From positions 1 to 46,073 of the forward strand of contig JAADGJ010000019.1 of NCBI GenBank assembly GCA_013152435.1: a stretch of DNA of 46,073 bases. The letters are read 5' to 3'. This document shows positions 25,418 through 30,401 of the stretch, in pieces (position 1 is the stretch's first letter; each line of letters begins with the position of its first letter). Below the pieces are notes generated by a model. The model ran no database searches, was not told the origin of the DNA, and saw only the letters and a list, made by a program, of their open reading frames with translations. The translations under genes and the position numbers were made by a program. Source of the stretch: Chloroflexota bacterium (GTDB taxonomy: Bacteria > Chloroflexota > Anaerolineae > DUEN01).

Positions 25418-26224
25418 ATGAGCCCTGCAAATGTGATCCGTCCGACCGCCCTCTCCGGGATGACCATGGTCGTCATCCCCACCTACAACGAGGCCGACAA
25501 CTTAGCCGACCTGGTTCGGGAGCTGCTCGGCCTGGACGTGCCCGACCTCCACGTGTTGATCGTCGATGATGCCTCTCCCGACGGAACGGGGGAACTTGCA
25601 GACCGGCTGCGGGAGCGCTATCCGGGCCGTATGCACGTGATCCACCGGCCGGGGAAATTGGGGCTGGGCACCGCGTACGTGACCGGTTTCCGATACGCGT
25701 TGGAGCAGGGCGCCAGCTTCATCGTGCAGATGGACGCCGATTTCTCCCACTCGCCATCGTACGTGCCGCGCTTGCTGGCCCCTCTGAGCGAGTACGACGT
25801 CGTCATCGGTTCCCGCTATGTCCCCGGCGGCCGCCTGGATGAGCGCTGGAGCTGGTGGCGCTACCTGCTGAGCTGGTGGGCGAATTCCGTGTATACCCGG
25901 CTGATCCTGGGCATCCGGGTGCGGGATGCCACGGCCGGTTTTAAGGCCTGGCGTCGGGAGACCCTGGAAGGGATCGACCTCAGCCGCATCCGCTCCAACG
26001 GCTATGTGTTCCAGGTGGAGATGGCGTACGTGACGGAGAAGCTGGGCTTTCGCGTGCTGGAAGTGCCCATCTACTTTGAGGATCGACGCATCGGTCGATC
26101 CAAGATGACGGTCCCGGTGAAGCTGGAGGCCGCCTGGCGGGTGTGGGAGCTGCGCTGGCGCTATCGGCATCTGCAGCGGATCGGCCATCCGGCCGTGACC
26201 ACGCCTGCCCCAGACCACCTCTGA
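25418..26224 (+). CDS. GT2 polyprenol-phosphate glycosyltransferase (DPM1-like)
   Basis: A 268-residue cytoplasmic family 2 glycosyltransferase that should transfer a hexose (mannose or glucose) from a nucleotide sugar to polyprenyl phosphate. The nucleotide-binding start [12 protein letters not shown] (residues 18-29), [12 protein letters not shown] (48-59), the DAD metal motif in [10 protein letters not shown] (104-113) and GSRYVPGG and [13 protein letters not shown] match DPM1-type enzymes. It lacks the C-terminal membrane helices of CsbB/GtrB-like enzymes. The ATG at 25418 was chosen from promoter spacing; an in-frame ATG at 25460 is possible. The fusion gene starts 13 nt downstream, so the donor lipid made here is probably used by that protein. 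Confidence 0.9.
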
Positions 26225-26237
26225 GGCTGCGGACACC

Positions 26238-29200: not shown

Positions 29201-30401
29201 GGCCGTGGTGGGGGCGGCGTATCACGTCTGGGGCGGGCTGACGCCGGAGGAGGCGCAGGCGATCGCCCTGTTCGCCATCGCGCTGCTGTTCGCCGGGCTG
29301 GCGGATGCCATCAGCGCCGTCTTCTACGCGTATGAGCAGATGGAGTATCCGGCGGGGATCGCGTCCGCCATCGCCGTGGGCAAGGTCGCTTTGGGGGCGC
29401 TGGTGCTCTTGCCGCCTTTGAACTGGGGCTTCGTGGGGCTGGCGGGCATCTCCGTGGTCATGAACCTGGTGCAGACCGTCTGGTTGTATCTGCTGGTCCG
29501 CCGGAAGCTGCTCACGCCACAGGTCGTGGTGGATCGCCGCCTGCAGCGGACGATGTTGCAGGAATCCGCCCCGCTGATGATCAACCATCTGCTGGCGACC
29601 ATCTTCTTCCGCATCGACGTGTGGATTTTGAAGCCCATCAGCGGCGCGGTGGCGGTGGGATTGTACGGCGCGGCGTATAAGTACATCGATGGGCTCAACG
29701 TGATCCCGTCCTACTTCACGCTGGCCATCTTCCCATTGATGTCCCGCCTGGCCCGGGGCTCACACGAGTCGATGGTGCGCGCGTACGTTCTGGCGTTGCG
29801 CCTTCTGCTCATGATCAGCCTGCCCATCGCGATGGTGACCACGTTCATCGCCCGGCCGCTGATCCTGGTCCTGGGCGGCGAGAGCTTCCTGCCGGGATCC
29901 GCGCTGGCCTTGCAGATCCTCATCTGGTCCATCCCGATCGGCTTCTTGAACAGTGTGACCCAGTACGTGCTGATCGCTGTGGACCAGCAGCGCTTTCTGA
30001 CCCGGGCTTTCGTGATCGGCGTCGTGTTCAACGTGGTGGCCAACCTGATCTTCGTGCCGCGCTATAGCTATATGGCGTCGGCGGTGATCACGATCTTCTC
30101 CGAATTCTCCCTCCTTATCCCCTTCTACTATGCCGTGCGGCGGTATGTGGCCCCTGTGCCGTGGGCGAGCGTGATCTGGCAGCCGGCTGTGGCGACGGCC
30201 GCCATGGGGGCGGTGCTGTGGATAGGGGCTCGATGGTCTCTGTGGGCGGCGGTGGTCTTGAGCGCCCCCGTCTACGCGCTGGCGCTGGTGGCTTTGGGCG
30301 TCTTTCGGCAGCCGGATATGGCCGTGTTGTTACGTGGGCTGCCATGGGGGCGACGAGGGCTGCCGGACGCGAACGGAGCGGCCCATTCGGCCGCCCCGTG
30401 A
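26238..30401 (+). CDS. YfhO-like GT-C glycosyltransferase fused to a Wzx/MVF-type flippase
   Basis: A 1387-residue polytopic membrane protein with two modules. Residues 1 to about 890 resemble YfhO: an N-terminal helix, PADNFYAWEPWRSF and PLWNPYLFSGMPFLADAQ in the first outer loop, many helices, then a soluble part ending DAYFPGWKAY and a final helix. Residues about 895-1370 resemble polysaccharide/lipid flippases of the Wzx/MVF type: about 12-14 helices starting RVAKNSLVPMGLSLVNKG, with RFGLGTLLTREVAR and RIDVWILKP. No stop or frameshift separates them. GTG start at 26238, with GAGG upstream. Expected role: flip a polyprenyl-linked sugar made by the preceding GT2, then transfer it outside the membrane. 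Acceptor unknown. Confidence 0.88.
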   Translation: MFHRIRGSVLAALLLLLLPLLWFAPVLTGRHTLLPADNFYAWEPWRSFAEQMGVDVPHNELLSDLILENYPWKRFIRESLSARQIPLWNPYLFSGMPFLADAQHSALYPFSVLFWIMPLEVAYGWFTALQIALAGLSLYALARVLRLSRPAALIGAVAYMLSGFFMVSVVFTMMIAAAAWLPALLACIEVVIRKQEDKGDVPYSPVPYVALGSLILGMQVLAGHVEITYYVLVVSGFYAAWRLVGLWRRLGRWQPAVRLGAWLLAMVAVGLALGGIQLLPLIELAQRNFRQGSVTYRDVVGWAWPTRQVLTFVLPDVFGNPSHHGYWDIWSFRWVPATVNALGQPARTIFWGVKNYVEGGNYLGLLAMGLAGVALVRAVLDRRGGESRRRRDQTAFFALLSLISLANAFGTPVYALFYYGLPWYKQVHSPFRWVFPLTLSVAVLAALGADALLRASEDRRWLRRVARLIALALIVAGGGALLAVGASLVWPDPFIAAGQRVVDGSDLAQMAFADGRMFWSYQAVNLLKFGIMAVLSGLVIWVAAHRPTGDRRSIRRLWPALAIVVLAFDFWLAFGRFNPAVDPKLLRFTPPSIAWLQDRLDEPDGPWRFTTFNAPGEKTLNANAGWLYDLQDVRGYDSIIPKQYTDYMDRIQPQAGELLYNRIAPIYTQGRGPSGYEALDSPWLALLGVRYVVTTQHIPNATYELVYQDEVRIYRNREAMPRAFVMRCAAAEPTSEVDWAAVDPRTELVLETEEAVEGTGSGSASFLHLAPCTLDPARVVRYTGNEVEVEASGGEGAYLVLADAYFPGWKAYTRPVAGSSSDERELTIYRAYGNFRAVELGAGQQIVRFKYTPMSFKLGVYVSFLSWVTLLLAAGWWAWGRFYREVSGEAAEVRRVAKNSLVPMGLSLVNKGIDFAFAMLRLRILTPTGEGSYTFAINFYAFFEILVRFGLGTLLTREVARDREQAGRYLSNVVMLRVALWLLALPVMAVVGAAYHVWGGLTPEEAQAIALFAIALLFAGLADAISAVFYAYEQMEYPAGIASAIAVGKVALGALVLLPPLNWGFVGLAGISVVMNLVQTVWLYLLVRRKLLTPQVVVDRRLQRTMLQESAPLMINHLLATIFFRIDVWILKPISGAVAVGLYGAAYKYIDGLNVIPSYFTLAIFPLMSRLARGSHESMVRAYVLALRLLLMISLPIAMVTTFIARPLILVLGGESFLPGSALALQILIWSIPIGFLNSVTQYVLIAVDQQRFLTRAFVIGVVFNVVANLIFVPRYSYMASAVITIFSEFSLLIPFYYAVRRYVAPVPWASVIWQPAVATAAMGAVLWIGARWSLWAAVVLSAPVYALALVALGVFRQPDMAVLLRGLPWGRRGLPDANGAAHSAAP

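Follow-up and report, generated by a model that had tools for sequence, protein, structure and literature searches.

A Chloroflexota protein that joins a predicted YfhO-type transferase to a predicted Wzx-type flippase and is usually encoded right after a GT2 gene

In many Chloroflexota, a predicted lipid-sugar flippase and a predicted transferase are fused into one protein, and its gene usually lies directly after a GT2 gene. A flippase and the transferase that attaches the sugar at the surface are normally separate proteins. The two genes probably encode a transmembrane glycosylation system, in which the GT2 would charge polyprenyl phosphate with a sugar, the Wzx half would flip the product, and the YfhO half would transfer the sugar outside the cell. 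We have fair confidence in this reading, which draws on profile matches, predicted structures, and conservation.

Organization of the two-gene unit

The window, meaning the whole stretch of 46,073 nucleotides that was analyzed, carries both genes on its forward strand. The GT2 gene (25418-26224) starts with ATG and encodes 268 amino acids. After a gap of 13 nt, the fusion gene (26238-30401) starts with GTG and encodes 1387 amino acids in an uninterrupted frame, as the first-pass annotation had described. A GH1 beta-glucosidase-like gene (about 23893-25230) precedes the GT2 on the opposite strand, and two bactofilin genes lie side by side on the minus strand (30423-31480), convergent with the fusion gene. 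Because the flanking genes on both sides are on the other strand, the unit stands alone. In another part of the window, FeoB, FeoA-like, and Fur-like frames were read by eye in a row on the minus strand (19044-21945).

The unit consists of two genes with their own promoter. The predicted promoter, TTGACC-N17-TATAAT (25380-25408, plus strand), is perfect and of the consensus sigma-70 type. The pattern TTGAC-N18-TATAAT had a single match in the 46-kb window and none in 100 shuffles. Furthermore, the boxes, their spacing, and their distance to the ATG were identical in both related loci compared (L038 and L104). Since the -10 box ends 9 nt 5' of the GT2 ATG, the mRNA should be leaderless or nearly leaderless.

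An assembly join of two genes, or a chance frame, was ruled out for the fusion gene. Including the window's own copy, 57 non-redundant frames align to the fusion from before residue 60 to beyond residue 1300, and the relatives keep the fusion intact. The fused alignment has 58 rows, namely the window protein and these 57 frames, one of which is the window's own copy.

Predicted functions of the GT2 and the two fused halves

The GT2 scored 111.8 bits with the PF00535 profile. Its best solved relative in a sequence search against the PDB was the dolichyl-phosphate mannose synthase of P. furiosus (5mlz, E 4.7e-32), which agrees with the DPM1-type assignment made earlier. By this homology, the GT2 would be the polyprenyl-phosphate sugar synthase component of a multi-component transmembrane glycosylation system. 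It has no transmembrane or hydrophobic segment in a hydropathy analysis (maximum KD-19 of 1.07), and no small membrane protein is found beside it in the two-gene unit. The first-pass annotation had stated that the GT2 lost its membrane anchor. The anchor is indeed absent, but the loss itself was supposed rather than observed, and a glycosyltransferase without an anchor has a precedent (PMC8035078). The fusion protein itself could recruit the soluble GT2 to the membrane.

The YfhO-type GT-C domain comprises residues 1-882 including the last TM helix (26238-28883). Residues 1-890 scored 52.1 bits with the Pfam YfhO profile (PF09586) against a cut-off of 28.5, and the profile was matched by all 50 of 50 aligned sequences at E <= 0.001. 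An AF2 model built from the alignment (pLDDT 93.6, pTM 0.94) has a GT-C fold. A sequence search of the PDB gave no matches for either half of the fusion, and the fold search gave matches for both. The best Foldseek matches of the GT-C half were AftD, AglB, ArnT, AftA, and DPY19, with eight matches at E <= 0.001 and modest global TM-scores (0.24-0.39 of the query).

Two Asp residues lie in the predicted first extracytoplasmic loop: D37 (26346-26348), the candidate catalytic residue, and D64 (26427-26429). Both are invariant in the 58 rows, together with H224, E226, E358, and others. Among stand-alone YfhO proteins, Asp is present in 8 of 10 at the D37 position and likewise in 8 of 10 at the D64 position. 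The YfhO half is therewith predicted to combine a GT-C fold with a conserved acidic residue in the first outer loop. Its C-terminal domain (residues 600-853; 28035-28796) is mostly beta-strand in a DSSP analysis of the AF2 model and is presumably extracytoplasmic, as judged from GT-C topology. The FPGWKAY motif noticed earlier occupies residues 806-812 and is followed by a predicted TM helix at 854-882.

The presence of AglB, an oligosaccharyltransferase, among the top fold matches, next to a flippase domain of Wzx type, allows a reading in which the Wzx half flips a polyprenyl-linked glycan that the GT2 helps to build. The YfhO half would then transfer this glycan whole to a protein or polymer. 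We judge such en bloc transfer improbable: AftD outranks AglB and ArnT follows closely behind it, characterized YfhO enzymes use a polyprenyl-P-monosaccharide (PMC8035078), and the neighboring GT2 belongs to the DPMS type, which makes monosaccharide donors.

The Wzx/MOP-superfamily flippase domain comprises residues 889-1387 (28902-30398). Residues 891-1387 scored 103 bits with Polysacc_synt (PF01943) against a cut-off of 28.2, in line with the flippase assignment of the first-pass annotation. The separate AF2 model of this half (pLDDT 94.1, pTM 0.90) has a MOP fold, and its fold matches included MurJ (7waw, TM 0.78), WzxE (9g9p, TMt 0.82), and MATE proteins. Invariant residues are found throughout. 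The dedicated flippase of the system thus appears to be present as a fused Wzx/MOP type and not as a GtrA type.

The highest-ranking Foldseek matches were MurJ structures, with TM values of up to 0.78, which would fit a MurJ-type lipid II flippase and a role of the fusion in peptidoglycan synthesis. This is the reading to which we give the least credence. The murJ equivalog model of NCBIfam gave 45 bits, far below its cut-off of 235.55, and the same genome has three strong MurJ genes elsewhere (C80, C3, and C149). On these two grounds, the identity of the Wzx half as the MurJ of the cell was ruled out.

The last GT-C TM helix, followed by a short linker that leads to the Wzx half, makes up the junction (28797-28925), which has the pattern WxRFYR ... 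VAKNS. The spacing from P853 to W879 is 26 residues in 58 of 58 rows, and that from W879 to N899 varies between 17 and 21 residues. In the predicted topology, the last GT-C helix would run inward from the outer beta domain and end at the cytoplasmic face, which is where MOP flippases start. With both ends on the cytoplasmic side, the topologies of the parent proteins would be compatible.

Distribution, gene neighborhood, and history of the fusion

Among 41 genomes, the full fusion was found in 31, was cut by contig ends in six, and was absent from four. The 31 include G032, in which the GT2 and the fusion are each split by frame breaks (L107); this is a single-contig genome, 77% complete, and the breaks are probably sequencing errors. 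A phylum-wide sample of 201 genomes added 17 further genomes, and the total by our own count is 48 sampled genomes, which represent 42 Chloroflexota families. In that sample, the fusion was absent from families f27 and f39, which belong to the same class as the window's genome. A scan of genome contigs with exact peptide patterns gave 19 loci, Chloroflexota only, with titles naming Anaerolineae, Caldilineae, Caldilineales, Caldilineaceae, Anaerolineales, or Chloroflexota. A plasmid search did not find the fusion.

Fifty-five non-redundant fused loci had enough flank for a survey of the neighborhood. In 37 of them, the gene just upstream on the same strand encodes a homologue of the window's GT2, with gaps of -33 to 92 nt; in the other 18, the GT2 is not adjacent. 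A good homologue (60-68% identity) is located elsewhere in some of these genomes, such as G011, G036, and G013, and others have weaker GT2 homologues only. The GT2 is the one widely conserved neighbor, and most others vary between families; the Caldilineaceae loci have more surroundings in common.

These surveys bear on the main rival to the two-gene reading. Wzx proteins mostly flip pyrophosphate-linked oligosaccharides rather than polyprenyl-P-sugars. The Wzx half might therefore flip an acceptor, an undecaprenyl-PP-oligosaccharide, and the YfhO half might decorate it on its emergence, with the sugar supplied by a polyprenyl-P-sugar that a separate GtrA has flipped. Wzx_EPS was the best NCBIfam model for the flippase half in 47 of 48 members, and a GtrA gene was found in 37 of 41 genomes of relatives, including the window's genome (G000:C97:24923-25288). 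That gene has no recognized GT2 or GT-C gene beside it among the called frames, and no GtrA is linked to the window's unit; it is possible that it acts as a shared donor flippase. GtrA proteins are common to several systems in Listeria (PMC8035078). Against this rival, GtrA was undetected in G010, G020, and G039, assemblies that may be incomplete, although each has the full fusion. No oligosaccharide assembly cluster was recognized among the neighbors of the fusion, where the GT2 alone is widely conserved. On balance we regard acceptor flipping as unlikely, and it is plausible that the cargo of the Wzx half is the donor rather than an acceptor oligosaccharide.

Phylogenetic trees of the two halves gave different pictures. 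Stand-alone YfhO proteins fall outside a single group that unites the fused YfhO domains (SH-aLRT 100). The fused Wzx domains are not one clade, because lone Wzx proteins of families f44, f93, f97, and f72 nest among them, and a constraint of monophyly was rejected (p-AU 5e-62). With one clade of fused YfhO domains and lone Wzx proteins nested among the fused ones, the simplest reading would be that one ancient fusion arose and that the YfhO part was later lost several times. No single-gene orthologue of the fused YfhO half was found among 20 genomes, and lone YfhO genes are distant from it (26-32% over long alignments).

A GT2 gene is followed directly by a lone Wzx gene at L084:6268-8857 (G218), in a family whose sister genomes carry the full fusion. 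The N-terminus of this lone Wzx, LLHAWPRFFAGDSHASALRRVAKNAAVPM, is similar to the final part of the junction helix and linker. We read this locus as what loss of the YfhO part may look like, with a remnant of the junction helix kept. Lone Wzx relatives are common in other Chloroflexota classes, and an extra N-terminal helix is present in L089, L091-L093, L098, L099, and L101-L103; several of these helices end in WxRFYR or similar, as at the fusion junction. The helix may be a remnant of the fusion or an older state; the Wzx tree has no firm root and contains several long branches. Cluster c4, which lies beside lone Wzx genes, was considered as a partner and set aside as irrelevant; by eye it reads as a leucyl-aminopeptidase-like protein.

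At L102:9312-13186 (G126), the genes of a lone Wzx relative and of a PMT-type GT-C overlap by 4 nt, apparently an unfused flippase-transferase pair with another GT-C family. That lone Wzx relatives are common indicates that the Wzx half is able to function on its own. Their existence also leaves room for a fusion in which one half is an inactive scaffold, and the protein is just a transferase or just a flippase. We consider this very improbable, as the loop-1 acidic residues of the GT-C half and residues throughout the Wzx half are invariant.

Proposed mechanism and comparison with known systems

In the preferred two-gene reading, the soluble GT2 would charge polyprenyl phosphate at the cytoplasmic face with a sugar taken from a nucleotide-sugar, as its DPMS homology suggests. 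The Wzx/MOP half would move the polyprenyl-P-sugar to the outer leaflet, in keeping with its family and fold. The YfhO-type half, with D37 and D64 in its first outer loop, would then pass the sugar to a putative envelope acceptor, for example a surface glycopolymer or glycoprotein. The fusion may fix flippase and transferase at 1:1, with a single TM helix plus a short linker between them. If so, the flipped donor would emerge beside its transferase and would be less exposed to competing enzymes.

This reading is favored by the identification of all modules by profile, and of both halves also by structure. It is further favored by the presence of the fusion in 42 families with the GT2 as the recurring upstream neighbor, by the promoter of the unit, by the invariant residues of the GT-C half, and by the fitting topology with a junction of near-constant length. 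The full fusions without a detected GtrA, the lone Wzx behind a GT2, the lone Wzx overlapping a PMT-type GT-C gene, and three published parallels (PMC8035078, PMC3871713, and PMC11127046) point the same way. The usual pyrophosphate-linked cargo of Wzx proteins, a separate GtrA that could flip the donor, the loci without an adjacent GT2, and the frequency of lone Wzx relatives count against it.

Each of the published parallels combines a polyprenyl-P-sugar synthase with a transferase that acts on the outside and with a flippase, either MOP-type or otherwise proposed. The GacI-GacJ/GacK/GacL system of S. pyogenes, which adds GlcNAc to the group A carbohydrate, likewise has an anchorless GT-A synthase, a Wzx-type flippase, and a GT-C (PMC8035078). 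However, its genes are separate, its GT-C is PMT_2-type and not YfhO, and it works with a separate small membrane protein. AglD/AglR/AglS of Haloferax volcanii is similar in having a synthase of polyprenyl-P-mannose, a transferase that depends on this lipid, and a protein that acts as a flippase or assists one (PMC3871713), but has separate genes, archaeal dolichol, and an N-glycan acceptor. The polyprenyl-P-pentofuranose system of Citrobacter youngae shares a GT-C and a MATE-family flippase of the MOP superfamily for a polyprenyl-P-sugar (PMC11127046), but uses another synthase, a GT136 GT-C, and separate genes. As noted in PMC11127046, proteins of such three-component systems still lacked a direct demonstration of flippase activity.

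The CsbB/GtcA/YfhO systems of Bacillus, Listeria, and Staphylococcus also combine a GT2 with a YfhO-family GT-C (PMC8035078). Their GT2 is membrane-linked, their flippase is of the small GtrA type, and their genes are separate, whereas the present unit has a fused MOP flippase and a soluble GT2. The first-pass annotation had named a GT2, a YfhO-type GT-C, and a MOP flippase, the components of a three-component transmembrane glycosylation system, and this set was borne out as conserved and usually linked. Its remark that the flippase differs from the small GtcA type also holds, but not as a novelty, given the precedents of GacI/GacK/GacL, AglR, and the Citrobacter MATE protein.

A transferase and a flippase also share one polypeptide in MprF (PMC5898192). 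The families are unrelated, MprF flips an aminoacyl-phospholipid, and its fused enzyme makes the cargo inside rather than consuming it outside. Fusion of a flippase with a cargo-making enzyme is known or has been proposed for MprF and AglD (PMC5898192). A literature search that covered a minority of the subscription papers found neither a GT-C-flippase fusion nor a flippase joined to a transferase that uses up its cargo. Such systems are already known to include soluble GT2s and Wzx/MATE flippases, and the fusion is an unusual, old union of ordinary parts.

More tentatively, and as a possibility rather than a probability, the fusion may be an ancient substrate-channelling enzyme. A MOP flippase and a GT-C in one chain would let the polyprenyl-P-sugar be consumed without diffusion in the outer leaflet, and some lineages would have shed the transferase and kept the flippase.

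The identity of the flippase in three-component systems, and its contact with the transferase, have so far been largely inferred. That the fusion has been conserved in 42 sampled families argues strongly for a MOP flippase and a GT-C acting as a pair. As a single protein for structure work or reconstitution, it could allow flipping and transfer to be seen together. Furthermore, the fusion offers a way into the study of Chloroflexota envelope glycans, about which little is known.
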